Part shown: positions 2,706-20,911 of the stretch, piece by piece
Numbering within the stretch: the first letter of the stretch is position 1
How the letters are laid out: the number at the start of each line of letters is the position of its first letter
From: an uncultured Bacilli bacterium
Lineage (GTDB): Bacteria; Bacillota_I; Bacilli_A; RF39; UBA660
DNA: 20,911 nucleotides
NCBI GenBank assembly: GCA_910586425.1
Contig: CAJUHL010000030.1
Span: 1 to 20,911, forward strand
Reading direction: 5' to 3'
Made by a program: the position numbers and the translations under genes
The notes under the pieces: generated by a model
What the model was told of the DNA's origin: nothing
Database searches by the model: none
What the model saw: only the letters and a program-made list of their open reading frames with translations

Positions 2706-3689
2706 CTAACTTTCTTGATTAGCGTTTGTATTATTAATTTTTATTATATAAATATTATCTGATTTTATTTTTATTTCATTTGTATTATAAACAATTTTCA
2801 TTTCTCCATTTACTATCTCTTTTGTCTTTATAAAGTTTGAGAGAAGTATTTCTTTCACACCATTTCCATTGCAATATAATTCTGTAAGACAAATACTAAT
2901 ATTCTCTGTGACATCATCTTGAAATCTACATACAAAACTCGCTTTTTTTATTTTATAAGCATAACATTTAGGATAAATAACAAATGTACTATAATTTGAC
3001 CAGCCATAAGATTGTTTTCTTATATACGAAAATAAGATCTCATCATTCTTTTCAACACTCTCCAAACTACATTCTACTGCATATATGCTTTCCTCAACTG
3101 GATAATCAATATATAAATTTTTTACTGCATAAGGATATAAAATTATCTTTTCCTCATTATTTTTTGTTTTTTTTACATAACAGTTCTCTGGCATATGTTT
3201 ATTTTCTCCAAATATCCATGGGTTAAAAACATTATTATGCTTAACTTTTTTGCCAAAAATAAACCTATGAGAATAATGTATATCTGATTGATTATTGTCA
3301 TGTTTTGAAATTTCAAAAGAAAACTTAGCTTTCTTTATGTAAAAGTTATTTGTTTTATTTATTCCATTTGATATAGCTTCATTCTCACTATGCTCAAATT
3401 GATAATTCCTCATTAAAATCATTCTTATAGTTTGCACATGTCCTCTATGAGCAAGTAAAACAAGCCCATTCCATCTATTTTTTAATTTTGCATTTGAATA
3501 AACAGATATGAACCAAAAAAATAATAAAAGTGCAATTATGATTAATAAAATATTATATCCCCTGGACAAATCGTCTCCGTATAAAGATATCCTTAAACTG
3601 ACTATCGTAGAAACGATACTCAGAAGTCCAATAAAAACACTACCAGTCTTTTTCAAATTATCTTGATTTTTTCTTATATATTTCAACAT
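2706..3689 (-). CDS. Membrane protein with two TM helices and a beta-rich domain
   Basis: The 327-residue product has a short basic N-terminus (MLKYIRKNQ), two predicted transmembrane helices (about residues 16-34 and 46-64), a short basic loop, and then about 250 residues rich in alternating hydrophobic, Ser/Thr and aromatic residues typical of beta-strands, with few long helices. The ATG at 3689 has an AGGAG ribosome binding site 9 bp upstream, which supports this start. I do not recognise the family. The 2TM-plus-beta architecture recalls SMODS-associated 2TM/beta effectors of CBASS-type immunity, but no cyclic-nucleotide synthase gene is in the window and the protein is longer than the compact CBASS examples, so this is only a resemblance. 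It sits alone between a decayed region and a string of small genes. Low GC like the gene at 74-796. Confidence 0.7.
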   Translation of the reverse strand: MLKYIRKNQDNLKKTGSVFIGLLSIVSTIVSLRISLYGDDLSRGYNILLIIIALLLFFWFISVYSNAKLKNRWNGLVLLAHRGHVQTIRMILMRNYQFEHSENEAISNGINKTNNFYIKKAKFSFEISKHDNNQSDIHYSHRFIFGKKVKHNNVFNPWIFGENKHMPENCYVKKTKNNEEKIILYPYAVKNLYIDYPVEESIYAVECSLESVEKNDEILFSYIRKQSYGWSNYSTFVIYPKCYAYKIKKASFVCRFQDDVTENISICLTELYCNGNGVKEILLSNFIKTKEIVNGEMKIVYNTNEIKIKSDNIYIIKINNTNANQES

Positions 3690-4428: not shown

Positions 4429-5727
4429 TCATGCTGAATTTTTGCTTTTGTTCTCACCATAATATCTCTGATTCCACCTGTAAGCCATATATCCAATAGT
4501 CTCTCTATCTGGTATTCTTTCAGGCGTTCCAAAATGAGAAGCTGAAAAGCAGCCTTTACTGCATACAACCTTTATTGTCTTTATTCCCTCCGGATCTCTT
4601 TTCCCATCTCTTCCCTTTGCGCTATTTCTTTTTATAAATCCAGCCTTATTTCCACAAAATGGGCACCGCTTTAATCCGTTTGCGTATGTAATTTCAGATG
4701 GCATGTCAGGTTCACACTCTGGAAGTTTATCAGGTAAAGTATCATCGTCAATCCACATATCATCGTTTTTTATGCGGTGATTCCATTTTTCCACCAGTGC
4801 ATTAATCACATCCTTAAACGCATTGACATAAAGTCTGTCCTTCTGATTTAAACCACTTGACTCAATCACATCCTTTTTCATGATATGCAAACAGTCATCA
4901 CATTCAACAGTAACTATCAGATCGAACCAAAATGTTTTCATATAAATATGGGGTTCTTTACCACAAAATGGACAAGGTAATAAATCATCATGCAGAAACA
5001 TTTCAGTAATATCCAGTTTTTTATGCCCTATCACATATTTTTTCATAATCTCCACTATCAAAAAATCAAAGAATTTAACTTGTTTCCTTTTGGTTTCCGG
5101 ATATTTGAAAAAGGATATAACAGCGTCATAAATAATCAATTCTTTTATATGGTACTTATTACCTCTACACCATACACACGTATACACACTTCTGTACATT
5201 TCAAAAACATCAAACATATTTACTTCTTTTGCATTCAGATTATCAATCATTCTGCAAAATTTTCTAATGCTTTTGTTCTTTTTAACATTCCCCAAAAACG
5301 AGATGTTTTCGCCTGTATATTCCGGTTCATAATCCATAGTCCTACATGAAATTGTTTTATATCGGTCTGATACAAAAACATCAAATTCTTTATATTCTGC
5401 ACAATCTTCTTTTTCTAAAAATTCCTCAAATGTCATTATGTTAGTAGAGGAAAGCCTAAAAGTTTGCCTGTAAAGATTGTCATATGTTTTTTCAGGAACT
5501 CTATATATGTAACAGTTATTGTCCTTTGATAACATTGACAGTTCAAAAATGTCCTCTGTTATTTTTTCAGAACGTCTTAATGCCGCATACAATTCATCAT
5601 ATGTAATACCATGTTTTTTAAAGTCGGACATAAAAACGCAAAATTCTTTAAAGTTTCCTTTATTTTCATAAGCCCTACTCAACCAACAATACAAATCGTC
5701 CAGCCATTCTTTATTGTTTATAATCAT
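4429..5727 (-). CDS. Double Lar-like zinc-ribbon protein
   Basis: The 432-residue product (from the ATG at 5727, GGAG 10 bp upstream; a GTG three codons earlier lacks spacing) carries two similar C-terminal zinc-ribbon modules. The first (about 252-320) has CPFCGK, then a CDDC pair and ends in EKWNHR. The second (about 355-422) has CPFCGN, then CSKGC and ends in YRWNQR. CPFCG...C..C...W-N is the pattern of the Lar restriction-alleviation family found in phages and plasmids. The N-terminal 250 residues are not recognised; they contain a CVWC pair near residue 185. The usual Lar protein is a single module of about 60-80 residues, so a tandem pair on a long N-terminal extension is unusual. An anti-restriction or nucleic-acid-binding role is inferred from the motif only. 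Confidence 0.7.
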   Translation of the reverse strand: MIINNKEWLDDLYCWLSRAYENKGNFKEFCVFMSDFKKHGITYDELYAALRRSEKITEDIFELSMLSKDNNCYIYRVPEKTYDNLYRQTFRLSSTNIMTFEEFLEKEDCAEYKEFDVFVSDRYKTISCRTMDYEPEYTGENISFLGNVKKNKSIRKFCRMIDNLNAKEVNMFDVFEMYRSVYTCVWCRGNKYHIKELIIYDAVISFFKYPETKRKQVKFFDFLIVEIMKKYVIGHKKLDITEMFLHDDLLPCPFCGKEPHIYMKTFWFDLIVTVECDDCLHIMKKDVIESSGLNQKDRLYVNAFKDVINALVEKWNHRIKNDDMWIDDDTLPDKLPECEPDMPSEITYANGLKRCPFCGNKAGFIKRNSAKGRDGKRDPEGIKTIKVVCSKGCFSASHFGTPERIPDRETIGYMAYRWNQRYYGENKSKNSA

Positions 5728-5757
5728 ACTCTTCACACTCCATCCATAATTACATAA

Positions 5758-6266: not shown

Positions 6267-6899
6267 TCATTTTTTCCTTAAAATACCCGCATATTTATAA
6301 AATGTACTTACTGCTATCCCCTGCAGTTTTGCAAACTGTACCACGGAAATGCTTCCATATTCTCCAGATTGAAATTTATTGTATTCCTTAATAAACTCTT
6401 TTGGTACACCTGTAGCCGGCCTGCCCAGCTTCTTTCCCTTTTTTCTTGCCACATCAAGTCCTTGCATAACTCTATCATGTATCTTTTCTTTTTCCTGCTG
6501 TGCTATATGTGCCTTCAATGTGACAAAAATATCAATGATCATCTTTGACAAACTGTTGTCATTCATCTTTTCCCAGTCATTCAGAAATGGAACATCCAGA
6601 GCAACAACCCTGATTCCTTTTGACTGCAAATCTTTAATTTCCACGATCACATCATCTGCATTTCTTCCAAGACGGTCTACATCAGATATAATCAGCGTAT
6701 CACCGCTTCTAACGTGTTTCTTCATATTATGATAGTTTGATCTGTTATCAGCCTTTGTTCCTCCAGTAATAACATCTGAAACAAATTCATCAATGTAGAA
6801 TCCATTGTTTACGGAATATTCAATGATAGTCTGTTTTTGTCTGTCCGTTTTTTGATGATTAGTAGATATCCTCATATAAGCAAAAATCTTATTTTCCAT
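6267..6899 (-). CDS. Serine recombinase, resolvase/invertase family
   Basis: Small serine recombinase that would cut and rejoin DNA through a 5'-phosphoserine intermediate. The 210-residue form begins MENKIFAYMRISTNHQKTDRQ, with the catalytic serine at residue 12 in the R-I-S-T motif. The SDVDRLGRN motif of the catalytic core follows near residue 75, then the long E helix with QQEKEKIHDRV. The linker KLGRPATGVPKEF leads into a C-terminal HTH (FAKLQGIAVSTFYKYA). Length is normal for the resolvase/invertase class. I chose the ATG at 6899 because GGAGG lies 8 bp upstream; 22 further in-frame residues upstream have no ribosome site. Its upstream region holds dyads that could be its recombination site. 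Likely role is resolution of cointegrates or inversion on the mobile element. Confidence 0.93.
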   Translation of the reverse strand: MENKIFAYMRISTNHQKTDRQKQTIIEYSVNNGFYIDEFVSDVITGGTKADNRSNYHNMKKHVRSGDTLIISDVDRLGRNADDVIVEIKDLQSKGIRVVALDVPFLNDWEKMNDNSLSKMIIDIFVTLKAHIAQQEKEKIHDRVMQGLDVARKKGKKLGRPATGVPKEFIKEYNKFQSGEYGSISVVQFAKLQGIAVSTFYKYAGILRKK

Positions 6900-6929
6900 C
6901 TGTAATTCCTCCACAAAATCCATAATGAT

Positions 6930-7010
6930 TTTCATGTAAGATTTTCTTATCATATCCATCTTCAAAAATGCAAATTTCCACTTACATGAAATCGAATGTA
7001 TTCATATAAG
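6930..7010. promoter_or_regulatory. Candidate recombination (res-like) site
   Basis: CTTACATGAA (6981-6990) and TTCATATAAG (7001-7010) form a 30-bp dyad with a 10-bp centre and 9 of 10 arm bases paired. A further copy TTTCATGTAAG (6930-6940) is an exact 11-bp inverted match to 6981-6991. CTCATATAAG (6871-6880), just inside the recombinase gene, is a weaker direct copy. Position directly upstream of a serine recombinase, and a near-30-bp dyad with further half-sites, match the general layout of res sites in this family. It could instead be an operator for the gene. Confidence 0.45.
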
Positions 7011-8830: not shown

Positions 8831-8920
8831 ACTGATTTCTCCATCTTTATATACAGTTTTTTCAGGGGACAACTTCATATAAAGCTATCCCCACATTTTT
8901 GTTACTGTCCATTTACTTTC

Positions 8921-9946
8921 TTATGATACTGTTTCATCTCCATCCACACACTGAAAGAATCCATCAAAATGCTTTTCAATCTCTTCCAGCCTTTTTCTGA
9001 CTGATTCCTTTTTCGCTGACCCGCTTCCGGCATTCTGGTTATAAATATCCGATATGGAAGCGGATTTTTTACCGGAGAAAAATTCTGATGCCCATTTTGC
9101 CATCTGTTCATCTGACAGATCATTCTGCAGGGACTTCCACACAATCGGAACCATGCTGATCAAATGCGTTCTGGTCAATATCCGCTTCGCAGCCTTTTTA
9201 TCTTCCATCAGGCCATGCATGGCTACAATCCGGTTATAAATTTCCGTCAGCTGCTTCCGGTCTTCCTCTGTAATATCCACATCAGCCATGAGCGGACGAA
9301 TGATCTTTGTTTCCATGGACGGCCCCGCTTCATGAAGCATGGCATAGGATTTAATCACAATATCCTCATTTGTATATCGTGCCATTGCTTTTTCTGTCAG
9401 AGCACTTTTAAATAATTCATGCTGCCCGATCTCCCGTATGGTATCCATTGATCTGGCTCTGGCCCTTGTCAGTTCAATTGCTGATAATGGTTTTCCGTTG
9501 TTCAGCCTGAAGAACATTTCAGAAATCTCATCATCCGTGATTCCGTCAAAATAGTATACGGTCAGGGAATAACCCGTGATCTCGTCTCTCAGTGTCTCTT
9601 CCAGTTCATCAAAATGAAGAGTATTGATATCAACCATATCCGTTGTGCCGTCTTCATTTTCCACTTCTATCTCCGGAACATCTGTCAGTTCAAGTTTTCC
9701 ACTGATAAAGTCAACAATGGCATTTGTCCTCTGTTTTCCGTCCAGCATGTCATAGCCGTTTTCATTTTTCGCCGCATAAAACGGCGGTATGGGATATCCG
9801 ATCAGCATGGAATGGATCAGAAGACTCTTCCTTTTATCATCCCATACAAGACCACGCTGTACCGCATTGTCAAATCTGACGGTTCCATTCTGTGCCATTT
9901 TTGCAAGCTGTCTTGCATTCCAGTTGATATTTGCTCTCTTTAACAT
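8921..9946 (-). CDS. DUF262-domain protein (second of two)
   Basis: The 341-residue product carries a DUF262 domain, a ParB/sulfiredoxin-like fold known from GmrSD-type type IV restriction enzymes and the SspE family. The core motif is LDGKQRTNAI at about residues 68-77, preceded by VQRGLVW (29-35) and followed by FRLNNGKPLSAIEL. No C-terminal DUF1524 His-Me nuclease is present: the remainder is helical and ends in a Ser/Lys-rich linker and a short acidic tail. The ATG at 9946 has GGAGG 8 bp upstream; an ATG five codons earlier overlaps that site. It lies downstream of a sigma factor and a first, quite different DUF262 protein (10721-11806), probably in one transcription unit. Its activity is unknown; in the family the DGQQR-type motif is tied to nucleotide hydrolysis. 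Confidence 0.85.
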   Translation of the reverse strand: MLKRANINWNARQLAKMAQNGTVRFDNAVQRGLVWDDKRKSLLIHSMLIGYPIPPFYAAKNENGYDMLDGKQRTNAIVDFISGKLELTDVPEIEVENEDGTTDMVDINTLHFDELEETLRDEITGYSLTVYYFDGITDDEISEMFFRLNNGKPLSAIELTRARARSMDTIREIGQHELFKSALTEKAMARYTNEDIVIKSYAMLHEAGPSMETKIIRPLMADVDITEEDRKQLTEIYNRIVAMHGLMEDKKAAKRILTRTHLISMVPIVWKSLQNDLSDEQMAKWASEFFSGKKSASISDIYNQNAGSGSAKKESVRKRLEEIEKHFDGFFQCVDGDETVS

Positions 9947-10008
9947 ATAGCTTTCCTCCATATTTCCGAATGTATTTGTTATTGGTTACACTCATGAGTT
10001 AAAAGCTG

Positions 10009-10029
10009 TGGTGGAAATCGAATCCACCA
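10009..10029 (-). terminator. Candidate weak terminator hairpin
   Basis: TGGTGGA (10009-10015) pairs with TCCACCA (10023-10029) around a 7-bp loop. Read on the minus strand it follows the 54-residue gene and is followed, after CAGC, by only four T, so read-through into the DUF262 gene is likely. Confidence 0.3.
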
Positions 10030-10052
10030 TAAAGCACCAGCCAGCCCGATTC

Positions 10053-10217
10053 TTACTTTCTGATCAGTTTGGAATCATCAAACCATCTGACAGTTCCGTC
10101 TTTGTTAATGGGAACTTCTACTCTGTGACCGTTCCCATAGTCAATGATCCTTGACATCCTGCTTTTTCCATCATCGGTCAATTCTGCTCTTGTGAATATT
10201 TTTGCTGATTTGTGCAT
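10053..10217 (-). CDS. Small protein of unknown function (54 residues)
   Basis: This short frame starts MHKSAKIFTRAELTDDGKSR and ends WFDDSKLIRK. The ATG at 10217 has GGAGG 11 bp upstream, and composition is protein-like (alternating beta-type segments, IDYGNGHRVEVPINKDGTVRW). It lies between the 118-residue gene and the second DUF262 gene, same strand, so it belongs to that operon by position. No family recognised. Confidence 0.65.
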   Translation of the reverse strand: MHKSAKIFTRAELTDDGKSRMSRIIDYGNGHRVEVPINKDGTVRWFDDSKLIRK

Positions 10218-10303
10218 GATACTTTATCCTCCTTATTTATCATCAGCTTTTCGCTGTGATTATCTGTTTCTCAATTATCAATATGTTCTTCTTCATCTGA
10301 AGA

Positions 10304-10660
10304 CTATCTCATGGCATATCTGTCATATCTTCTGTTGCTGTTTCCACATTTTCCGTTTATCTGTCTGAAATATTCGTCCAGACTGAATGAATATGACCTG
10401 CTCTGTAAACAGACACATTTTCCGCTTTTCCGGACTGTTGTTTTCGCTATCACAATACTGTTAGTCAAAGACAGATAATTCCTGACAATTCCTTCCAGTG
10501 ATTTTCGCAAATCGCAGTACGGGGTGTCTACATAAAATTTAGTACCTTTATCCTCTTCATTTACGAAAAAGACAATCCTGTATGAAAAACAGTCTTCAAC
10601 CATGTTGTTTGCTTCACATCCACGTTCTATATCCTTGATAATATCTGAGATCGTATACAT
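10304..10660 (-). CDS. Unknown protein in the sigma/DUF262 operon
   Basis: The 118-residue product begins MYTISDIIKDIERGCEANN and has several short predicted strands (SYRIVFFV, KFYVDTPY, SIVIAKTTVR), then a basic, Arg-rich tail. The ATG at 10660 follows GAGGGG with about 6 bp spacing. It is 60 bp downstream of the first DUF262 gene, with an intercistronic hairpin between. No cysteine or catalytic motif stands out and I do not recognise the family. Confidence 0.7.
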   Translation of the reverse strand: MYTISDIIKDIERGCEANNMVEDCFSYRIVFFVNEEDKGTKFYVDTPYCDLRKSLEGIVRNYLSLTNSIVIAKTTVRKSGKCVCLQSRSYSFSLDEYFRQINGKCGNSNRRYDRYAMR

Positions 10661-10685
10661 AAATTCCCCTCATTTCCTTTGTGTA

Positions 10686-10708
10686 TGGGGAGAGACTCGC
10701 CCTCCCCA
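10686..10708 (-). other. Intercistronic hairpin
   Basis: TGGGGAG (10686-10692) pairs with CTCCCCA (10702-10708) around a 9-bp loop, between the first DUF262 gene and the 118-residue gene. There is no T run on the minus strand after it, so it is more likely an mRNA processing or stability stem than a terminator. Confidence 0.4.
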
Positions 10709-10720
10709 AATTTTCCACTG

Positions 10721-11806
10721 TTACGCTGCTTTTCTGATTTCCTTAAAATACTTTTCCATCAGTGCCACCAGATAATCAACTTTTCCATGAACCACACTGG
10801 CGTCTTTTGTTGAACGGGTAACGTCCAGAGAATCCCACATTTTCCCGTCAATTTCCGTATTTTTTCCGTCGATCACAAACCATTTGAGAAATCCGTTAAA
10901 CTCGGTATCTTCCTTTCCAGATTCTGTAAACGCCTTAAACGCCGCTACAAAGATATATGTATTTTTTCTATTGAACAACGTTTTATTTTCCGGTTCTACT
11001 GAAACAGCCAGCCTTGTAAGCAGATCATTAACCCTTCTGAAATCATCCATTGTACCGTTTTCATTCAGCCATTTAAAGCCCTGTTTTGTGTCCTTCCTGT
11101 ATCTGTCAGGATAATTACAGAGAAGTACAATATCACCTATCGTCCGTTCAATCGTTCCGTTTATTCTGGCCTGCCGGCTGCCGGAATACACATCCAGAAA
11201 GAATCTGTTTTCTGTTATCTCTCTTATTTCCCTGGCAAAAACATCTACATATGTAAACGCTTTCTGTGCCTGATTCATGGAAACATGGTTGTTATACTTG
11301 CGGACAAGTCTGGAAATTTCCGTTGTATCACAGTTCTGATGTATGGCAACTTCCAGCTGATAACCGTTGAATCTGTCTTTCAATTCTTCCGGAAGCTGCT
11401 CATATGTCCTGCTACGGATATCATACTGCACAGGTTCCCACATGATTTCCCCGTGTTCGTCTCTTTTCACGTTTCCGTTTTCATCCAAAATTTTCCGCTG
11501 ATAGGATACAAGGTATTCATCCATATTCTTTGTAATTCTGGTATTTCCATAACGGAATAAGGAAAGAGTGCTTGAACGCTGAAGCCCGTCAATGATCCAC
11601 TGTCTTGTGATTCCGTTTACTGTTTCCTCCCCCAGAATAACTGGCGGAATATAGTTGTCAGTCAAAACCGTATAAATCAACTCATTTACCATGTTTGGTG
11701 TCCACTGTCCGGATCTTCTCTGACATTCCTGATCGCTGCGGATTGTTTCCGCATTCATCAACTTTAAATACTGGTCAAGGCTGTACGTCTGTTTTCTGAT
11801 TTTCAT
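10721..11806 (-). CDS. DUF262-domain protein (first of two)
   Basis: The 361-residue product has the DUF262 signature: CQRRSGQW (about 28-35), YIPPVILGEE (52-61) and the core WIIDGLQRSSTLSLFRYG (70-87), followed by the EVAIHQNCDTTEISRLVRKYN segment and a helical C-terminal half. As in the other copy there is no DUF1524 nuclease domain. The two copies share only the motifs, not obvious overall identity, so they are separate subfamilies rather than a recent duplication. Its ATG overlaps the stop of the sigma-factor gene by 4 bp (ATGA), with GAGGG just upstream, so the two proteins should be made together. The family fold is ParB-like; the role here is unknown, and DNA recognition or modification sensing is inference. 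Confidence 0.87.
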   Translation of the reverse strand: MKIRKQTYSLDQYLKLMNAETIRSDQECQRRSGQWTPNMVNELIYTVLTDNYIPPVILGEETVNGITRQWIIDGLQRSSTLSLFRYGNTRITKNMDEYLVSYQRKILDENGNVKRDEHGEIMWEPVQYDIRSRTYEQLPEELKDRFNGYQLEVAIHQNCDTTEISRLVRKYNNHVSMNQAQKAFTYVDVFAREIREITENRFFLDVYSGSRQARINGTIERTIGDIVLLCNYPDRYRKDTKQGFKWLNENGTMDDFRRVNDLLTRLAVSVEPENKTLFNRKNTYIFVAAFKAFTESGKEDTEFNGFLKWFVIDGKNTEIDGKMWDSLDVTRSTKDASVVHGKVDYLVALMEKYFKEIRKAA

Positions 11807-12405
11807 GGTGTTCCCTCCTGAAATAAAATTTTTACGTTTTCGTAGCTTCTCATGATTTGCAGGTTGTCTGTATATTCTTTTTGCGATATTTTCAACATTT
11901 CCCGTATCTCATAAGGCCTGTATCCATCCACCAGAAGATTCAGGATATTTACCTGCTGACTGGATAATCTTGAAATATAACGCTGAATTTTTCCCTGATA
12001 CTGTCCGCTCCCCTGTCTTTTGATCACTTCCTCAAATGTATCAAAATCAGATGGTATAAATTCCATCAGGTTACATCCGTCTTCATCTCCGTTTACTGCG
12101 TCCAGTGAAACCGCCATTCTGTCCGCTTTACGCTTCATACGATTCCTTTTAGTTATATCTGTTTTGATATTATTTAAAAGGCATGAATACAGAAATCCAT
12201 CAAATGACTGTGAATCATCATACTTTTTTAATACCTGTACAAAAACCTCATTGGCAAGCGAATAAAAATCATCTCTATCCCTGTCTGACAGTCCACCGAA
12301 TTTAGATAAAATCTTATCAACTGTCCTGTGCAGTTTCCTTGCATTATTGGCATAATAGCTTTCCAGTATATCAGACTGTAAAACCGCCACCGCTTCAGTT
12401 GTCAT
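11803..12405 (-). CDS. Sigma-70-family (ECF-like) factor
   Basis: The 200-residue product fits an alternative sigma factor. A region 2 segment lies at about residues 38-90 (DRDRDDFYSLANEVFVQVLKKY, then the SFDGFLYSCLLNNI helix and a basic KRNRMKRKADR stretch). An acidic linker with DEDGCNLMEFIPSD follows, and a region 4 HTH lies at about 145-195 (LSSQQVNILNLLVDGYRPYEIREMLKIS). The length matches the ECF group. The ATG at 12405 has GGAGG 7 bp upstream. It is translationally coupled to the DUF262 gene behind it and is preceded by a structured leader. No anti-sigma gene is recognisable. It may direct RNA polymerase to promoters of the element itself, but no target site was identified. Confidence 0.8.
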   Translation of the reverse strand: MTTEAVAVLQSDILESYYANNARKLHRTVDKILSKFGGLSDRDRDDFYSLANEVFVQVLKKYDDSQSFDGFLYSCLLNNIKTDITKRNRMKRKADRMAVSLDAVNGDEDGCNLMEFIPSDFDTFEEVIKRQGSGQYQGKIQRYISRLSSQQVNILNLLVDGYRPYEIREMLKISQKEYTDNLQIMRSYENVKILFQEGTP

Positions 12406-12432
12406 TTACAGTTCCTCCTTCCTTTGACTACC

Positions 12433-12496
12433 TCCCACCATGATTAGGTGGGAACGCTCACAGCTTAAAGTCCTGTTTATAGTGGCTGTGACCACT
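12433..12496 (-). other. Structured leader with competing hairpins before the sigma gene
   Basis: Between the 92-residue gene and the sigma gene lie three pairings. TCCCACC (12433-12439) pairs with GGTGGGA (12447-12453). AGTGG (12481-12485) pairs with CCACT (12492-12496). TCACAGC (12458-12464) could pair with GCTGTGA (12485-12491), which would exclude the second. The leader could regulate the sigma gene, whose ribosome site lies about 15 nt downstream of the first hairpin. The hairpin string also recalls the right end of IS200/IS605-type elements with their TnpB guide RNA; no tnpB is present. Confidence 0.45.
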
Positions 12497-12497
12497 G

Positions 12498-12776
12498 TTA
12501 TTTGATTCTTAAAACGTTGAAAGAAGTTTTCTTTTCATACTCTTCCAGACTGCCGAGATCCTCTTCCAGCCTTGCCTTGTCCAGCGTCGTTCTGGTCTGC
12601 GGTTTATAGGTGATCTTTGCCGTGTCGGTGATCTCCGTGTCAAGTTTGTTTTCTGTCATGTAATCAATAATGGAATGCTCGATTGCCTTCAATTCGTTTT
12701 CAAGCTCTTCTTTCATTGCTTTCAGACTTCTTAACTCCTGCACTTTCTTTTCAAGTTCGTTCTTTGTCATACACAT
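12498..12776 (-). CDS. Small coiled-coil protein of phage/element type
   Basis: The 92-residue product has an N-terminal coiled coil (about residues 4-40, MTKNELEKKVQELRSLKAMKEELENE), then IIDYMTENKLDTEITDTAKITYKPQTRTTLD and a C-terminal VLRIK strand. This layout is that of small phage proteins encoded near single-strand annealing or recombination genes, although no such gene is here. The ATG at 12776 has AGGAG 8 bp upstream. It is the first gene behind the leftward promoter at 12941-12969, with a leader of about 160 nt. It ends just before the leader of the sigma gene. Confidence 0.75.
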   Translation of the reverse strand: MCMTKNELEKKVQELRSLKAMKEELENELKAIEHSIIDYMTENKLDTEITDTAKITYKPQTRTTLDKARLEEDLGSLEEYEKKTSFNVLRIK

Positions 12777-12934
12777 AATTCAATCTCCTTTTCTTATCTG
12801 ATTTGCAGCCCTTCCGTCATCTTCCTGGCTATTGACGCTTCCGATCAAGCGGCTCACAGGTATATGGACGGAAGTATTAGAAAGCTTTTCGGTCTTTCGG
12901 CTGTATTTTGTAGGTCTGTTTTGTTTGACCTTGT
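12777..12934 (-). other. Long 5' leader of the leftward operon
   Basis: The stretch between the leftward promoter and the first gene is GC-richer than the control region. CTTCCGTC (near 12820-12827) and GACGGAAG (near 12867-12874) form an 8-bp inverted pair on a 40-bp loop, and GAAAG/CTTTC pairs lie near 12880-12900. One minus-strand frame is stop-free for about 50 codons up to the TGA at 12780, 4 bp before the next start, but has only a GTG at 12857 and no ribosome site. I read this as a structured leader rather than a gene. Confidence 0.4.
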
Positions 12935-12940
12935 GATTAT

Positions 12941-12969
12941 ATTGTACACTTTAATGTACTTTATTTCAA
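12941..12969 (-). promoter_or_regulatory. Leftward promoter of the sigma/DUF262 operon
   Basis: Read on the minus strand, TTGAAA (12964-12969) and TACAAT (12941-12946) are 17 bp apart. The -10 box is part of dyad 1 (12942-12961), so binding there should block the promoter. Layout is the same as for the two rightward promoters of this region. Confidence 0.65.
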
Positions 12970-13064
12970 TAGTAATAGTACACAAAAATATACTTTATTT
13001 TTGTGCATTGTACATAATAGTGTACAAATATGCATATTGACATTTCGAACACAATAATGTACAA
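12942..13064. promoter_or_regulatory. Operator array, left group of four dyads
   Basis: Four sites share arms of 7 bp around a 6-bp centre. Site 1 is TTGTACA-N6-TGTACTT (12942-12961). Site 2 is TAGTACA-N6-TATACTT (12976-12995). Site 3 is TTGTACA-N6-TGTACAA, a perfect dyad (13008-13027). Site 4 is TCGAACA-N6-TGTACAA, degenerate on the left arm (13045-13064). Centres are 34, 32 and 37 bp apart, about three helical turns, so bound proteins would lie roughly on one face. Sites 1 and 4 cover the -10 boxes of the leftward and xre promoters. The neighbouring XRE protein is the obvious candidate ligand. Confidence 0.75.
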
Positions 13065-13065
13065 T
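13037..13065 (+). promoter_or_regulatory. Promoter of the XRE repressor gene
   Basis: A consensus TTGACA (13037-13042) and TACAAT (13060-13065) are 17 bp apart, 22 bp before the start codon of the repressor gene. Dyad 4 overlaps the -10 box, which suggests autorepression. Confidence 0.75.
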
Positions 13066-13087
13066 AAAATTAAGGAGGTGTCTTTTT

Positions 13088-13324
13088 ATGGGAGAAAGAG
13101 AAAAACAATACAGTGGAACAATCAGCTATAAAAAGCTTTTTGATCTAATGGAAGAAAAAAATATTAAAAAAAGAGATTTAAGAGAAAAATATAAAATATC
13201 GCCTACTATTGTAAACCGATTAAATAATAATTCTAATGTTGCTGTTGATACTATTATGTATTTATGCGAAATATTAGATTGTCAACCATCGGATATAATG
13301 GAGTATATACCAGCAACTAAATAA
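13088..13324 (+). CDS. XRE/Cro-type transcriptional regulator
   Basis: The 78-residue product is almost entirely a Cro/CI-type HTH: KKLFDLMEEKNIKKRDLREKY (helices 1-2), ISPTIVNRLNNN (recognition helix, about residues 38-49), VDTIMYLCEILDCQPSDIMEY (helices 4-5). It has no extra sensor or dimerisation domain, as in the small YozG-like group. The ATG follows AAGGAGG with 9 bp spacing. The gene is flanked on both sides by groups of the same dyad, three of which cover -10 boxes, so it probably represses itself, the leftward sigma/DUF262 operon and the rightward genes. What would release repression is not visible. Confidence 0.9.
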   Translation: MGEREKQYSGTISYKKLFDLMEEKNIKKRDLREKYKISPTIVNRLNNNSNVAVDTIMYLCEILDCQPSDIMEYIPATK

Positions 13325-13353
13325 TGTTTTTTTAATTTTATTATAACAGTGCA

Positions 13354-13441
13354 TAGTACACTTTTATATACTTTTCACAAATCAGATAGTATATTTTTGT
13401 GTACTTTTATTATTGACTTGTAAGTATACTATAGTGTACAA
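13354..13441. promoter_or_regulatory. Operator array, right group of three dyads
   Basis: Three further sites of the same form lie behind the repressor gene. Site 5 is TAGTACA-N6-TATACTT (13354-13373). Site 6 is TAGTATA-N6-TGTACTT (13387-13406). Site 7 is AAGTATA-N6-TGTACAA (13422-13441). Centres are 33 and 35 bp apart, as in the left group. Site 7 covers the -10 box of the next promoter. Confidence 0.75.
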
Positions 13442-13442
13442 T
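13413..13442 (+). promoter_or_regulatory. Rightward promoter overlapped by dyad 7
   Basis: TTGACT (13413-13418) and TACAAT (13437-13442) are 18 bp apart. The TGTACAAT end of dyad 7 forms the -10, just as in the xre and leftward promoters. A transcript starting near 13449 would include the left inverted-repeat arm at 13468-13494. Confidence 0.6.
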
Positions 13443-13467
13443 AACCTTAACAACAAAACAAAAAGCA

Positions 13468-13494
13468 CCCTGACAACTGAATAGACTTTACACT
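13468..13494 (+). repeat. Left arm of a 27-bp inverted repeat
   Basis: This 27-bp segment (CCCTGACAACT...TTTACACT) is the reverse complement of 13779-13805 with a single mismatch. Weaker similarity continues inward to ATGTGAT (13499-13505), matched by ATCACAT (13767-13773). The two arms enclose one gene (13534-13752). Confidence 0.9.
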
Positions 13495-13510
13495 CCAGAT
13501 GTGATATAAT
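13482..13510 (+). promoter_or_regulatory. Second, internal promoter before the 72-residue gene
   Basis: An extended -10 (TGATATAAT, TATAAT at 13505-13510) has a weak -35 TAGACT (13482-13487) at 17 bp, inside the left repeat arm. A transcript from here would lack the left arm, unlike one from 13413-13442. Confidence 0.5.
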
Positions 13511-13533
13511 CTTATCTACAGGAGGGACAAGCC

Positions 13534-13752
13534 ATGGATAAAGAATCAAGAGAATTATTCAATGCCATTGTTTCGGAACTTGACAGAGTAGAGCAAAAAA
13601 TATATGGCAGACTCGAAGAGGTCAATAATAAATTAGATGAATTACGTAAGGACATCAATTTATTAAAAGCCCGCAATGACTACCTTGATCTATACGCACT
13701 GTATAATCAGTTAGACAAAAGGCTGACCGATTTAGAAAAGAAAGTTTCATAA
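13534..13752 (+). CDS. Small coiled-coil protein between inverted repeats
   Basis: The 72-residue product is a near-continuous amphipathic helix: MDKESRELFNAIVSELDRVEQKIYGRLEEVNNKLDEL with heptad spacing of Ile/Leu/Val, then LDLYALYNQLDKRLTDLEKKVS. The ATG follows GGAGG with 8 bp spacing. It most likely forms a coiled-coil oligomer. The gene type is common in clostridial genomes and elements and its function is unknown. It sits inside a 338-bp block bounded by 27-bp inverted repeats and is followed by a hairpin terminator that uses part of the right repeat. Confidence 0.8.
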   Translation: MDKESRELFNAIVSELDRVEQKIYGRLEEVNNKLDELRKDINLLKARNDYLDLYALYNQLDKRLTDLEKKVS

Positions 13753-13778
13753 TAACCACATAACCCATCACATTTAAA

Positions 13779-13805
13779 AGTGTAAAGTCTATTGAGTTGT
13801 CAGGG
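13779..13805 (-). repeat. Right arm of the 27-bp inverted repeat
   Basis: Inverted copy of 13468-13494 with one mismatch (26 of 27). It overlaps the left half of the terminator stem at 13781-13813, so pairing between the two long arms in RNA would exclude the terminator. Confidence 0.9.
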
Positions 13806-13819
13806 ACTTTACATTTTTT
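13781..13819 (+). terminator. Terminator using the right repeat arm
   Basis: TGTAAAGTC (13781-13789) pairs perfectly with GACTTTACA (13805-13813) and a T-rich run TTTTTTATT follows. It lies between the 72-residue gene and the J-domain gene and would separate them unless prevented. Confidence 0.6.
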
Positions 13820-13836
13820 ATTGTGGAGGTTATGAG

Positions 13837-14358
13837 ATGGGAAAATATTTTAAAAACGTAACCACGTTAGAAGAATTAAGAAGACAGTACAGGGATTTAT
13901 TAAAGAAGTTTCACCCTGACAATGCAAACGGAAGCACGGAAGCAACACAGGAAATCAATGCTGAATATGACAGGCTTTTCAAAGTTTTGAAAAACAGACA
14001 TGAAAGCAAGACAACGAACAACAAAGAGAGCAACGCAAAGACAGATTTCAATAATATGAAATATGATTTTTCAGAGGATGCAAAGCTACGTGAAGCATTA
14101 CAGAAAATCATAACCTTTGATGGAATCAATATAGAAATAGTTGGTTGCTGGATATGGGTAGATGGTAACACATACGCATATAAAGACGCATTGAAGGAAA
14201 TCGGCTTTAAATGGGCCAGAGAGAAAAAGAAGTGGTATTTTCACACGGAAGCATTCAGGAAGAGAAGCAAGAAAAAATTAAGCATGGAAGATATACGCAA
14301 CTACTACGGAAGTACAGAAGTAGAGACAGAAGGGCGTAAACGGTTAAAACAGGCATAA
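13837..14358 (+). CDS. J-domain (DnaJ-like) protein
   Basis: The 173-residue product has a short J domain at the N-terminus (about residues 1-60), with LRRQYRDLLKKFHPDNANGS and the HPD triad at 26-28 that in the family stimulates Hsp70 ATPase. A charged linker (about 65-85) leads to a C-terminal module with WIWVDGNTYAYKD, then LKEIGFKWAREKKKWYFH, which I have seen in J-domain proteins of phages and integrative elements. No zinc-finger or substrate-binding domains of full-length DnaJ are present. I chose the ATG at 13837 (GGAGG 7 bp upstream) over an open extension back to 13792 that runs through the terminator. A local co-chaperone for element functions is a reasonable inference. Confidence 0.85.
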   Translation: MGKYFKNVTTLEELRRQYRDLLKKFHPDNANGSTEATQEINAEYDRLFKVLKNRHESKTTNNKESNAKTDFNNMKYDFSEDAKLREALQKIITFDGINIEIVGCWIWVDGNTYAYKDALKEIGFKWAREKKKWYFHTEAFRKRSKKKLSMEDIRNYYGSTEVETEGRKRLKQA

Positions 14359-14387
14359 GCACACACAAATTCATATTCATATAAATT

Positions 14388-14417
14388 CAGGGTGTAATTT
14401 TGGCAGATTGCACCCTG
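14388..14417 (+). other. 10-bp hairpin before the membrane-anchored gene
   Basis: CAGGGTGTAA (14388-14397) pairs with TTGCACCCTG (14408-14417), one G-U pair. No T run follows on either strand in the right place, so it is not a standard terminator. It lies 24 bp before the next start codon and may act on its translation. Confidence 0.5.
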
Positions 14418-14441
14418 ATAAAAAAGGAAGGGAATCACACC

Positions 14442-14828
14442 ATGAAATATATCACATATTCTATTATTCTTATTTCAATTTTATTTATGGCGCATTTCTC
14501 AGGTATGGAACGTGGTCAGGCAATGAATGAACCAAACTCATATTTACCGCTTGACCAGTGCATACCGCTTGAAGATATCGCCTGTTATTATGTAAATGAT
14601 TCTGGCGTTCTATGCGTCGAATTAAAGGATGTACAGCATCAGATAGATGATATTAACAATGATGCATATATAGACGTTATGGAAGGCTTACAGGACGTTA
14701 CAACGGCATTCCATGACAGATATATAGATATGAATACAGTCACAGGATACAGCGGGACTGATGAAGGATTGATGATTTATACAAAGGATGGAAACGGTTA
14801 TTATTTGGATGTTGAAATGATGGATTGA
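14442..14828 (+). CDS. Membrane-anchored protein of unknown function
   Basis: The 128-residue product starts with an uncleaved-looking signal anchor (MKYITYSIILISILFMAHFSG), so the rest (SYLPLDQCIPLEDIACYYVNDSGVLCVELKD, ending GNGYYLDVEMMD) should face outside. The exported part is acidic with several short strands and three cysteines. The ATG at 14442 has GGAAGG upstream with 8-10 bp spacing; an upstream TTG at 14400 is inside a hairpin and has no ribosome site. It follows the J-domain gene by 83 bp on the same strand. No family recognised. Confidence 0.7.
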   Translation: MKYITYSIILISILFMAHFSGMERGQAMNEPNSYLPLDQCIPLEDIACYYVNDSGVLCVELKDVQHQIDDINNDAYIDVMEGLQDVTTAFHDRYIDMNTVTGYSGTDEGLMIYTKDGNGYYLDVEMMD

Positions 14829-14846
14829 TGTTTGAGCGGATATATT

Positions 14847-14885
14847 AAAAACCTGACTTGTGATGAACGGAGCCAGGCTTTTATT
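14847..14885 (+). terminator. Candidate terminator after the rightward operon
   Basis: AAAA-CCTG (14847-14855) pairs with CAGG-TTTT (14874-14882) with one mismatch inside the stem, and further T/A follows. It lies shortly after the last rightward gene. Confidence 0.45.
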
Positions 14886-14900
14886 GTGCCGTTGATCTAA

Positions 14901-15053
14901 ATACCCTTTGTATAATTACGCTGTAATGCGTTTTAACGTTTCTGTACAATCTAAATAAGCTTATTTTCAGATTAAAATGATGCAAGGGTATACTTGTTAG
15001 GGTAGATGGCTTAAAATGGCTAAATTGGCTTATTTAAAGGGTGTAGAAACGTT
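14901..15053. repeat. Nested inverted repeats with iteron-like TGGCT repeats
   Basis: Two inverted pairs (8 bp: 14901-14908/14984-14991; 9 bp: 14935-14943/15045-15053), a central AAATAAGCTTATTT palindrome and three TGGCTTAAAA/TGGCTAAAT/TGGCTTATTT repeats at 9-10 bp intervals lie within about 150 bp. Helically phased short repeats beside a palindrome are typical of replication origins or protein-binding arrays, but no replication gene is near. Confidence 0.5.
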
Positions 15054-15260
15054 GTACGGGTTGTTTAATTGCAGTGATGGTTATTGATGATAGTGTATGT
15101 ATGATACAGGGACAGCAGGTGCAAGGATATATGCCGGTAGGTTTACATTTTGATTTAGATGCTTTAGTCCGTAAAAGCCCCCAGCAGTTGTATCCACATG
15201 TTAAGTTGATTTTGGAGATGTACCGAACCATCTATGCAAAACTTCTTTCAGCCTGTTTTT

Positions 15261-15318
15261 AAAGTATGTCACATCATATCGTGATATATTTGAAGAAAAA
15301 ATGGCAAAGTATGTCACA
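15261..15318 (+). repeat. Direct repeat of a 13-mer with adjoining dyads
   Basis: AAAGTATGTCACA is present at 15261-15273 and 15306-15318, 45 bp apart. The first copy runs into ATCA-N5-TGAT, the second into CACACT-GT-AGTGTG. This could be a paired binding site or the trace of a short duplication. Confidence 0.55.
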
Positions 15319-16987: not shown

Positions 16988-17174
16988 ACTGTTTATATGG
17001 GTAGGGGGGTATATTTCCATCTGAAATATTTAAGTACCTACTATATAGGGGATACATATCTAATAAATCACACCTCATTATTTTTGTTTACTGACTACAG
17101 CATACATTATACTAAATATCACTCCTGCAATCAATTATTTTAAGTGTTTATTTAGCTTTGATAAATCGGTAAAA

Positions 17175-18636: not shown

Positions 18637-18684
18637 AAAAAAAATAAAGCATACCAAATAAGTCCACCCTATCCGATATGCCTT
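18637..18684 (-). terminator. Terminator of the small leftward operon
   Basis: On the minus strand AAGGCATA (18677-18684) pairs with TATGCTTT (18646-18653), one G-U pair, with a 23-nt loop, and is followed by T8 (18637-18644). It lies 36 bp beyond the stop at 18720. Confidence 0.65.
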
Positions 18685-18719
18685 ATAATAAATCACACTA
18701 CTCTACTAACCCATCTCCA

Positions 18720-19160
18720 TTAACTAAAATATGTATTACTTCGTTCCCTCTTTACCGATTCCATCCCCTTATCTAACAATCTTCTATTTCGGTCCATATA
18801 AGCATCACATGATTTACTATCTTCTTCATTTTTCTCCGCGTTCCTGATACCTCTGTTTATGGCAGCAGTCATCTCTTTTGTCCTGTATGCGTCTTCTGAT
18901 TTTCTCTGTACACCCTCTTCATGAATATTCTGTAAAATCTGATTATGCTTCTGGTTCTGCTGTTCTTCTCTTGCCATTACTTTTTCAATGTAAGAATTGA
19001 GAAGGTTGCTACTATGCTGTATTCTTTCCCTCTCGGCTTCATCCCTTCTATCCATTTCAATCCTGTTTGCCCTTACCCTATCACGTTCCTTACGGTCACG
19101 CTCCGCACATACTAATTTAATCATGTTTAATTTCGATTCTGCTGTATTTGTTTTATTCAT
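18720..19160 (-). CDS. Highly charged coiled-coil protein
   Basis: The 146-residue product is very rich in Arg, Glu, Asn and Gln: RDRKERDRVRANRIEMDRRDEAER and then long helices with no hydrophobic core, so an extended coiled coil is expected. There are no catalytic motifs. The ATG at 19160 follows GGAGGGCATTTAACT, nearly identical to the leader of the gene just upstream, so the leader may have been duplicated. Third in a leftward operon behind the HNH-AP2 gene and ended by a terminator. Function unknown. Confidence 0.75.
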   Translation of the reverse strand: MNKTNTAESKLNMIKLVCAERDRKERDRVRANRIEMDRRDEAERERIQHSSNLLNSYIEKVMAREEQQNQKHNQILQNIHEEGVQRKSEDAYRTKEMTAAINRGIRNAEKNEEDSKSCDAYMDRNRRLLDKGMESVKRERSNTYFS

Positions 19161-19179
19161 AGTTAAATGCCCTCCAATC

Positions 19180-19371
19180 TTAATATCTCAATAAGCTCTT
19201 TTCTACTTCCATCTCTGCTTCAAGCTGTACTCTTTTTTCATTAATTCTGCATAATTCCTGATTATCATGGTTGATATGCGCTATGGTTTCCTCCGTATCT
19301 AATCGGTGAAACTTCTCCGCATATTCGTCTTCAATCAGTTTGGTTTTAATCTTCTTTTCAAAATCTGTCAT
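19180..19371 (-). CDS. Small charged helical protein
   Basis: The 63-residue product (MTDFEKKIKTKLIEDEYAEKFHR..., ending EVEKSLLRY) is a single amphipathic helix or helical hairpin rich in Glu and Lys. The ATG at 19371 follows AGGAGGACATTTAATT, almost the same leader as the next gene. It lies 20 bp behind the HNH-AP2 gene and 19 bp before the next, so these three genes form an operon. Function unknown. Confidence 0.75.
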   Translation of the reverse strand: MTDFEKKIKTKLIEDEYAEKFHRLDTEETIAHINHDNQELCRINEKRVQLEAEMEVEKSLLRY

Positions 19372-19391
19372 AATTAAATGTCCTCCTAAAT

Positions 19392-20363
19392 TTAATCATC
19401 CATCTCAATCTTCCAGTTCATCATAGCTTCATATACTTTATCTGGAATCTTACTCTTGTATCTGTCAGCCATTACAATTATAAGTGCTTCTTTATGTCTC
19501 TTATATTCCAGAAATGCTTCTTCTGGAGTATTGTAATATCCCAGTTTAACATTCTTACCATCAACATTCAGTGATGCACGATACTTATTTTTGCTTTTCT
19601 CATAACTCACTCCAAGCGGATATTTACCCCGTTTTCTTTTGCAGTTTAAAAGCAAAGTATTGATCGTATGAGGAACAAATACACATGTTTCAGGGCTGTA
19701 TACTTTATTACCTTTGAACAAAATATCTTTATCAAGGTCCATCTGTTCATCACCAGTCATATAGTAATTCTCTTCTACCCATTTATAGAATCGTTCCTTA
19801 TCTTCCAGCCAGTAATCACATATGGTACATCCCTTATATTCCGGAAATCTGTTATGTAATTTTATATTGTAACAGCGTGTCTGCATATCATTCCACAGCC
19901 TTTTTGCTTTCATAAGATTATTATTCAGGAATGGTATATATTTCTGTTCTCTACCCAAATCTTCTACACTGATCTTCCCATTTTTCAGACTATGCATTTC
20001 ACTGTCAGAGACATAAATCAGGTTATTGTATTTACTGTTGGAACTATCACCATCAATATGATATACTTTGTTTTTACCCTTTACTGGTTCTAAAAATGTC
20101 TGCGCCACTAAATTATCTGCATATACATCTCTTTTATATTCTACATCGCTTTCATCTTCATAGAATACCTTCCAATGAACCCTGTTTGTTGATTTTGCTA
20201 ATGTTTCATTATGTACATAGAATTTGCCCTTAATATTATTGGCTAACCTTCCCTCGGATGAAATATAATAATGCTTTGTTCCTTCTATCAGCATGAACGT
20301 TTCAAGTTTATTTAATGGCTTTATGCCTGTACGCTTTAAATCTAATATGTTTATTTCCTGCAT
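19392..20363 (-). CDS. HNH-type / AP2-domain homing-endonuclease-like protein
   Basis: The 323-residue product is built like a phage homing endonuclease. An N-terminal NUMOD-like segment (YYISSEGRLANNIKG, about 32-46) leads to an HNH-like core with VYHIDGDSSNSKYNNLIYVS (about 100-119). A middle module follows with WNDMQTRCYN and DKDILFKGNKVYSPETCVFVP, and then a C-terminal AP2-type DNA-binding domain (about 251-290, GVSYEKSKNKYRASLN...LGYYNTPEEAFLEY). The HNH core keeps the HIDG and the Asn of N-x-x-N-L, so it may be active; I see only one clear His of the usual pair. The ATG at 20363 has only a distant GGAAG. It is first gene of a three-gene operon. It may be selfish, or a nuclease recruited by the element. 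Confidence 0.8.
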   Translation of the reverse strand: MQEINILDLKRTGIKPLNKLETFMLIEGTKHYYISSEGRLANNIKGKFYVHNETLAKSTNRVHWKVFYEDESDVEYKRDVYADNLVAQTFLEPVKGKNKVYHIDGDSSNSKYNNLIYVSDSEMHSLKNGKISVEDLGREQKYIPFLNNNLMKAKRLWNDMQTRCYNIKLHNRFPEYKGCTICDYWLEDKERFYKWVEENYYMTGDEQMDLDKDILFKGNKVYSPETCVFVPHTINTLLLNCKRKRGKYPLGVSYEKSKNKYRASLNVDGKNVKLGYYNTPEEAFLEYKRHKEALIIVMADRYKSKIPDKVYEAMMNWKIEMDD

Positions 20364-20473
20364 TGCTTAGTTAGATACTTCCTTTCGATACGTCTTTAGA
20401 TAGCCAACACAAAATCGTGTTCACTAATAATTGAGCATCCCGATTGTATGCTCCGATTCCTATTCATAATAAA

Positions 20474-20504
20474 AGAGACAATACGATTGATTCATACTGT
20501 CTCT
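20474..20504 (-). terminator. Candidate terminator or bidirectional hairpin
   Basis: AGAGACAATA (20474-20483) pairs with TACTGTCTCT (20495-20504) with one G-U, around an 11-nt loop. On the minus strand TTTTATTATG follows; on the plus strand GGGTTTTGTTTG. It separates the HNH-AP2 operon from the region to its right. Confidence 0.6.
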
Positions 20505-20585
20505 GGGTTTTGTTTGATTATTCAGTTTTTAATGTATTTCCCATATTTTCTTATATTTTTCAAATTAGGTATTGACAAGCATTGA

Positions 20586-20645
20586 GGTAAAAGGAGGGGG
20601 TTATATAACAGAGATATATAAGTTATATTCCCCCCACCTTTTACC
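20586..20645. repeat. 24-bp imperfect inverted repeat with G5/C6 blocks
   Basis: The left arm (20586-20609: GGTAAAAGG, G5, then ATATAAC) and right arm (20622-20645: GTTATAT, C6, then CCTTTTACC) match at 21 of 24 positions around a 12-nt AT-rich loop. No T run follows on either strand, so it is not a normal terminator. A TTGACA lies just left of it (20573-20578). The G/C blocks in a dyad recall the origin of transfer of ICEBs1/Tn916-type elements, but no relaxase is in the window. Confidence 0.7.
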
Positions 20646-20660
20646 CCTACCTACACCATA

Positions 20661-20906
20661 TCAAGCTACATCCTCAATAATGATATTGGGATAACCGTCT
20701 GATTGAATATGATACTGTTCTTTCAATGCCTTATTTGCTTTGACCTTTTTCAGTCCATATAAACCCATAATCTCATTCAGACTGCGCTTAATCTGCGTTT
20801 CAGTAACTTCATACCTATATTTATTGCCAAGAATATATACAACTTCCTTTTCAGTACAATATCCTTTTCGCTGGATACACTGTAATATAATCTCGGAAAT
20901 CTTCAA
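20661..20906 (-). CDS. Small helical protein, cut by the window edge
   Basis: The readable 81 residues (KISEIILQCIQRKGYCTEKEVVYILGNKYRYEVTETQIKRSLNEIMGLYG..., ending PNIIIEDVA) have a winged-helix look: three helices, a turn, then two short strands. A TTG at 20906 could be the start but the frame is open to the edge, so the gene may begin outside. Its stop lies 15 bp from the large inverted repeat at 20586-20645, so it may belong with that site. Family not recognised. Confidence 0.55.
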   Translation of the reverse strand: MKISEIILQCIQRKGYCTEKEVVYILGNKYRYEVTETQIKRSLNEIMGLYGLKKVKANKALKEQYHIQSDGYPNIIIEDVA

Positions 20907-20911
20907 AGTAC

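Follow-up and report, generated by a model that had tools for sequence, protein, structure and literature searches.

How might a gene for a 78-residue DNA-binding protein, with inverted repeats on both sides of it and genes leading away in both directions, govern the region in which it lies? We have addressed this question in the window (the whole stretch of DNA that was analysed, 20,911 bases), and we think it likely that the locus is the immunity (lysogeny-control) cassette of a temperate-phage-like element of Lachnospiraceae, a reading drawn from sequence comparison. The earlier note on this DNA had proposed an off-switch for an accessory module; the layout of repressor, dyads and promoters on which that proposal was built stands, but the unit looks like an exchanged immunity cassette of phage type and not only like an off-switch.

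A pattern search of the window for GTAYA-N6-TRTAC gave exact cores at 12944, 12978, 13010, 13356, 13389 and 13424, the sole exact matches across its entire 20,911 bases, and a seventh core with one mismatch (GAACA..TGTAC) at 13047. By chance, a mean of 0.015 exact dyads and a maximum of 1 are expected (3000 dinucleotide shuffles of 12900-13460). The seven 20-bp dyads, one of them degenerate, that had been described on both sides of the repressor gene were thus all located. We number them from the left, without assigning a strand: sites 1 (12942..12961), 2 (12976..12995), 3 (13008..13027) and 4 (13045..13064) form the left cluster and sites 5 (13354..13373), 6 (13387..13406) and 7 (13422..13441) the right one, all being exact except site 4, which has the degenerate GAACA arm. 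The start-to-start spacings are 34, 32 and 37 bp on the left, 309 bp across the gene and 33 and 35 bp on the right, so that the spacing of 32-37 bp given before holds within both clusters. These spacings correspond to phases of 17-189 degrees at 10.5 bp per turn, and the helical phasing is therefore not uniform, contrary to what had been suggested, although the distances between sites are conserved. Each cluster is an inverted copy of the other (93% for 12966-12994 against 13388-13416 and 86% for 12940-12961 against 13422-13443): sites 1-2-3, with spacings of 34 and 32, mirror sites 7-6-5, with spacings of 35 and 33, and site 4 is an extra site at the repressor's own promoter. This mirror-image relation was absent from the earlier description.

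Three predicted promoters coincide with these dyads, namely the leftward P_L (12941..12969, minus strand; TTGAAA-17-TACAAT), P_rep of the repressor gene (13037..13065, plus strand; TTGACA-17-TACAAT) and the rightward P_R (13413..13442, plus strand; TTGACT-18-TACAAT). In each of them the -10 hexamer is formed from a dyad arm, as had been noticed, with a -35 hexamer at 17-18 bp, and all three have one dyad between -35 and -10 and another upstream. Site 1 covers the -10 and spacer of P_L, and site 2 lies immediately upstream of its -35; site 4 covers the spacer and -10 of P_rep, with site 3 upstream of the -35 and centred ~54 bp upstream of the predicted start; and site 7 covers the spacer and -10 of P_R, with site 6 upstream of the -35. 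We note that the AT-rich interval 12700-14000 holds 12 promoter-like matches where 6.3 are expected (sd 2.3), about twice the chance level, so the hexamers by themselves are weak and it is their location inside conserved dyads that makes the argument.

The repressor gene (13088..13324, plus strand) encodes a 78-residue protein of the Cro/C1 type that matches the HTH_26 profile (PF13443) over residues 17-75 with 62.5 bits against a cut-off of 22. Its best match in the PDB by fold and sequence is VanUG (HTH_26, PDB 3tyr), and it has the fold of this solved HTH_26 relative. No separate oligomerisation or autocleavage domain was found in the 78 residues, of which HTH_26 takes up 17-75. A protein search matched 42 records among phages (E 1e-3) and 24 among plasmids (E 1e-6), each of them less than 60% identical to the repressor. 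When the repressor alignment was used, 3 of 397 genomes of the family (E 1e-24) and 1 of 64 genomes of the Blautia schinkii genus (E 1e-20) were found, each at a locus found previously.

The earlier note had proposed comparing the dyads in related elements. Relatives were sought with the repressor protein and with a 22-row alignment, and seven loci came from genome contigs; copies were kept out of the counts (L012 of L001, L013, identical to L010, L016, on the same contig as L002, and L017-L023 of L005-L011). The four closest, L005 (Eubacterium sp. 14-2), L006 and L007 (Lachnospiraceae MAGs) and L008 (Blautia schinkii), have repressors 84-95% identical to that of the window, and all four keep the seven sites at nearly fixed spacing, so that the set is retained where these relatives retain the gene. 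From site 1 to site 2 the spacing is 34 in all five seven-site loci (the window and L005-L008), and from site 3 to site 4 it ranges from 37 to 40. Site 4 is degenerate in all five, reading GAACAC in each of the four relatives, and site 2 of L006 carries one further mismatch. (A greedy promoter-dyad scan missed site 1 of L005, which was seen otherwise, and took a shifted site in L015.) Compared with the window, 68-69 of the 70 dyad-arm positions are alike in L005-L008 (97-99%), as against 31-39 of 42 in the N6 spacers and 57-69 of 90-91 (63-76%) in the DNA between sites. Dyads were seen within the promoters of near as well as remote relatives. A viral contig, L001, whose repressor is 67% identical, has four upstream dyads and none downstream.

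The dyads also appear to be tied to the repressor in kind. Repressors that are 67-95% alike go with the GTACA half-site, whereas those at 56-59% identity (L009, L010, L011, L014 and L015) go with ATACA-N6-TGTAT dyads instead; since this split tracks repressor kinship, it may represent one change rather than many. In the ATACA group a dyad lies between TTGACA and the -10 of the repressor's own promoter in L009, L010, L014 and L015 (L011 is masked there), and a right promoter dyad is present in L010, L011, L014 and L015, the right-hand pairs being 33-34 bp apart in each of the latter; upstream, sites are more loosely spaced, and the scan missed some of them. The repeats differ again in L002 (48% repressor) and L003 (40%), those of L003 looking asymmetric by eye.

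Symmetric N6 dyads were also counted, without supervision, in the 220 bp to each side of the gene. This count, to which asymmetric arrays are invisible, reached four or more at 10 of the 13 in-group loci and at none of 30 loci with more distant HTH_26 proteins, with a shuffled mean near 1. Three in-group loci fell short of four: L002, L003 and L011, the last being masked on its upstream side. Among the control loci (13 of the 30 on the minus strand, flank counts being independent of strand), five had two dyads (L057, L065, L071, L076 and L082), those of L057 being the same two as in L002, and the rest had one. One control, L056, which shares its locus with L085, can be seen by eye to have GTACA-N6-CGAAC sites in an array on the left, ~33-35 bp apart. 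The control figure of 0 of 30 is therefore too low, and the layout extends beyond what the scan shows. Dyad-pair patterns were also found in 9 and 29 stretches of viral contigs, where L027 is the phage of L001 and the others may be chance.

Loci that share the flanking genes of the window allow a comparison in the other direction. The first gene of the leftward operon, orf92 (12498..12776, minus strand), encodes a small protein without an assigned function, and the second rightward gene (13837..14358, plus strand) a DnaJ-domain protein just below the Pfam gathering threshold, for which a search at E 1e-20 gave matches in 17 of the family's 397 genomes. In these sister loci the middle is occupied by an RHH-like regulator, by an XRE together with an RHH-like regulator or by no regulator, with own repeats in each. 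Thus L083 and its copy L091 keep orf92, a Pistol ribozyme, a small first rightward gene and the DnaJ gene around an RHH-like protein (PF01402 just below gathering) with ATATTGGTGCTAATAT repeats. L085/L092 is seemingly composite, its two cassette genes (2601-3028 and 1841-2010 of L085, minus strand) comprising one for an HTH_26 protein, with asymmetric GTACA-N6-CGAAC sites on the left, and one for a small second protein on the right, RHH-like by eye (no Pfam match above gathering), with GGTACCC repeats. Another small protein, again RHH-like by eye and without a Pfam match, accompanies ATAACGATATCGTGTTAT-type repeats in L095. The arrangement is not universal, since L087, L089, L090 and L093 have repeats but no repressor gene in the space between the divergent genes. 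At L087 (3247-4279) the repeats that separate the divergent orf92 and DnaJ genes are ACACA-N6-TGTGT dyads, and a gene for a 35%-identical XRE protein is found ~1.8 kb downstream of DnaJ.

The edges of the differing block fall near the promoters. The window and L112 are homologous as far as 12985, a point ~40 bases inside the P_L -10; no homology is then seen until 13437, where the P_R -10 has its first base, and from there it continues. The pattern is reversed with L006 and L007, where the cassette is the more conserved part (85-86% in the repressor gene and 79-86% in the arrays) and its neighbours are less so (68-70% for orf92 and 63-65% for DnaJ). Conservation of the cassette in L005 says little, because 18639-19548 and 20383-20911 are equally conserved at 86%. 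The 33-base 5' leader of the P_L transcript (12912..12944, minus strand), which forms the left edge of the exchanged block, scores above shuffled controls in 5 of 10 loci (L091 32, L087 30, L006 26, L007 25, L090 25) and not above them, or by one base only, in L005, L089, L093 and L095; the stretch of L092 ends short of P_L and its left-leader value is void. The 32-base P_R leader scores above controls in 6 of 10 (L005 29, L006, L092 and L095 27 each, L091 26, L007 23) and not, or by one base only, in L087, L089, L090 and L093. Combined, these comparisons fit the exchange of a regulator-operator block between elements with the same flanking genes, with the window and L112 as the clearest pair and the other loci more diverged. 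We also note that ~50 bp at 17005-17055 of the window, outside assigned genes, are 85-90% identical in L112 and L090.

To what kind of element does the cassette belong? Proteins of the window include sigma-like, GmrSD_N, Lar-like, HNH and DUF4062 proteins and a serine recombinase (6267-6965) whose best PHROG match is to DNA invertases, and no virion gene was found in the window. Around L005, 2 of the 7 proteins tested had PHROG matches, none structural, and a nucleotide search with 8900-15300 gave no phage match and, among plasmids, two short matches to DnaJ. Contigs of relatives do carry phage genes: tape measure protein, primase and integrase genes lie 16-31 kb from the repressor in L006, and terminase, portal and head protein genes 11-18 kb from DnaJ in L112, distances at which they may belong to another element. 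Several relatives of the repressor sit in viral contigs, with neighbours read by eye only. Given that no virion gene was found in the window and that only 2 of 7 proteins matched around L005, we call the element phage-type and leave its exact kind undecided. Separately, a 435-aa protein encoded at 4429-5736 on the minus strand has two Lar-type (restriction alleviation) stretches.

The locus might instead be no more than an autoregulated XRE rheostat in a non-phage accessory region, plasmid- or ICE-like and with no role in superinfection immunity, a reading that we regard as unlikely. VanUG, the nearest solved relative, is described as tuning a resistance operon (PMC4405338, consulted in part), the Xre repressor of plasmid pLS20 as controlling divergent promoters through two operator groups (PMC4207663, likewise in part); no structural phage genes were found in the window, and phage matches around L005 are few. 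Against this, phage structural genes are present on the contigs of two backbone relatives, relatives of the repressor lie in viral contigs, and regulator and repeats differ as a block among loci with the same flanks.

If the locus is an immunity cassette, the 78-aa HTH_26 repressor, probably as a dimer, would bind the seven dyads, and because these lie between -35 and -10 and just upstream of -35, bound repressor would exclude RNA polymerase from P_L and P_R and shut both the leftward and the rightward operon. Through the conserved weak site 4 it would limit its own synthesis. Repressor and matching operators would travel together between elements that have these flanking genes in common, and since the block moves as a unit, immunity would be specific to each block. 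An autocleavage domain would not fit into so short a protein, so induction would need a protein antirepressor or dilution. Should this be right, the cassette would represent a compact and easily tested immunity system of mobile elements in gut Lachnospiraceae, consisting of a 78-residue protein, seven sites and three promoters, and the natural swaps of regulator-operator blocks with different folds at the same junctions would make immunity specificity testable by cassette exchange.

It is improbable that the dyads are mainly bound by another factor, such as a host regulator or a paralogous XRE, with the 78-aa protein acting elsewhere; this idea draws on L087, with its repeats, the missing repressor between them and the XRE gene beyond DnaJ, yet the half-site differs with the group of the linked repressor, and different regulators accompany different repeats at the same place. 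That the mirrored clusters are recombination sites between which the repressor segment inverts, for instance by means of the serine recombinase at 6267-6965, we consider highly improbable: the 29-nt arms are 93% complementary and the best PHROG match of the enzyme is indeed to DNA invertases, but an orf92 homologue lies 5' of the repressor gene in all five seven-site loci, on which ground we reject inversion, and moreover the dyad arms are conserved while the DNA between sites drifts, and site placement tracks the promoters.

The proposed immunity cassette invites comparison with bacteriophage lambda, in which cI lies between OL and OR, divergent promoters contain operators, a weaker operator lies at the repressor's own promoter, and repressor and operators are exchanged between relatives. 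By sequence, the present locus resembles a lambda-type immunity region in having a repressor gene between operator clusters that overlap divergent promoters, in the weaker operator at the repressor's own promoter (here the degenerate site 4, predicted to be weak) and in that repressor and operators appear to pass jointly from one related element to another. It differs in that the repressor is a 78-aa protein consisting of an HTH without a cleavage domain and no Cro was identified, in having four plus three sites 32-40 bp apart in mirrored clusters within ~500 bp, and in that RHH-like regulators can replace the repressor. Despite the layout, we do not file it as lambda-type because the rightward operon was not found to open with a Cro gene, nor the repressor to have several domains; in a search for a Cro-like second repressor at the start of that operon, none was seen, orf72, the first rightward gene, having no HTH match.

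Other known systems share some of these features. VanUG of the vanG operon resembles the repressor in fold and sequence and is reported to bind two imperfect inverted repeats at its own promoter, which it autorepresses; it differs in acting on a resistance operon, in competition with a response regulator, and the portion of that article drawn on here reports no two-sided array of seven sites (PMC4405338). RcoLS20 of plasmid pLS20 is likewise an Xre repressor at divergent promoters with two operator groups, but its operator sequence is another one, and looping across 75 bp and tetramers are reported for RcoLS20 in the part of the paper used (PMC4207663). Gifsy-type phages, according to excerpts of one report, have small repressors that are not cleaved, together with antirepressors and heteroimmune relatives (PMC3121763). 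The likeness lies in a small repressor that is not cleaved, as predicted here from its length, and in heteroimmune relatives; the Gifsy-type repressors differ in being in the 150-aa range, and no antirepressor was identified in the present element. We did not recognise the cassette as described in open-licence PMC literature searched by titles and the starts of abstracts, which is weak evidence of absence.

The two operons may also be controlled at the level of RNA, with promoter choice setting the reach of rightward transcription and a ribozyme splitting the P_L message; this second layer is a tentative proposal that we hold with less than even confidence. On the left, the proposed promoter of a sigma/DUF262 operon is present, but the sigma-like gene is not its first: orf92 comes first, followed directly after its stop by a Pistol self-cleaving ribozyme (RF02679; 12426..12496, minus strand), with the sigma-like gene (11803..12405, minus strand; Sigma70_r2 below Pfam gathering, PHROG sigma at E 1.1e-9) and the adjoining DUF262/GmrSD_N gene (10721..11806, minus strand) further down. 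The covariance model matches the Pistol at full length with 70.2 bits against a gathering threshold of 34.5. The ribozyme also follows orf92 in L006 and L007 (2 of 10 loci scanned; not in L005 or L008), and occupies the same place in L083 and its copy L091. Neither sigma nor DUF262 had a tblastn match in the examined stretches of L005-L008; the pair recurs in L112. The Pistol class is said, in the part of the source used, to be frequent near phage-related genes and in Firmicutes (PMC4604425). The motif here is an ordinary member of this known class, and the notable point is its position between the first and later genes of P_L, where it would sever the first gene from the remainder of the message. 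Two different GmrSD_N/DUF262 proteins are encoded on the minus strand, at 8921-9961 and 10721-11806.

On the right, a leader arm of the rightward transcript (13468..13494, plus strand) is 96% complementary to 13779-13805, the 5' half and loop of a terminator-like hairpin with a T run (13776..13818, plus strand), and the two arms flank the whole of orf72 (13534..13752, plus strand), which encodes a small protein whose Pfam matches, HSBP1, SHE3 and MtrG, are all below gathering. The transcript 13449-13825 folds with z = -6.6. The hairpin at 13776-13818 was missed by a simple scan for terminators, which allows loops of up to 8; Rfam miRNA matches at the hairpin were below gathering and were taken as look-alikes. 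In the ten loci compared the leader-hairpin duplex, at -27 to -44 kcal/mol, is stronger than the hairpin, at -17 to -23. The pairing of each leader with its own hairpin beats cross pairs, being the best of 5040 permutations in the seven backbone loci, and across all ten loci none of 100000 random pairings was as good as the true set; the own pair is best in 6 of 10 rows and 7 of 10 columns, L005 being one exception. Complementarity between leader and hairpin is thus maintained across the ten loci. A second promoter-like site (13482..13510, plus strand; TAGACT-17-TATAAT) has an extended -10 (TGATATAAT), and its start would fall past the leader arm; an extended -10 follows the leader arm, by eye, in 9 of 10 loci, the exception being L084.

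The co-variation of leader arm and hairpin suggests a promoter-dependent antitermination in which the arm would be the antiterminator. In transcripts from P_R the leader arm would pair with the 5' half of the hairpin, so that polymerase continues into the DnaJ gene and those beyond it. A transcript begun at the inner extended -10 promoter would have no arm, the terminator would fold, and orf72 alone would be expressed. If the pairing acts as proposed, it would provide a simple coupling of read-through to the promoter that fired. The complementary arms may instead serve RNase III processing or have a role at the DNA level. No leader arm acting on a terminator past a whole gene was recognised in the open-licence PMC literature, again by titles and the starts of abstracts. 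Lastly, the leader-arm sequence occurs twice in L008, at 845 and 14931 and in one orientation, beside two integrase frames (848-1393 and 13241-14482), one of them full and the other shorter, with very similar C-terminal parts, and in that locus the leader arm may be an integration site.
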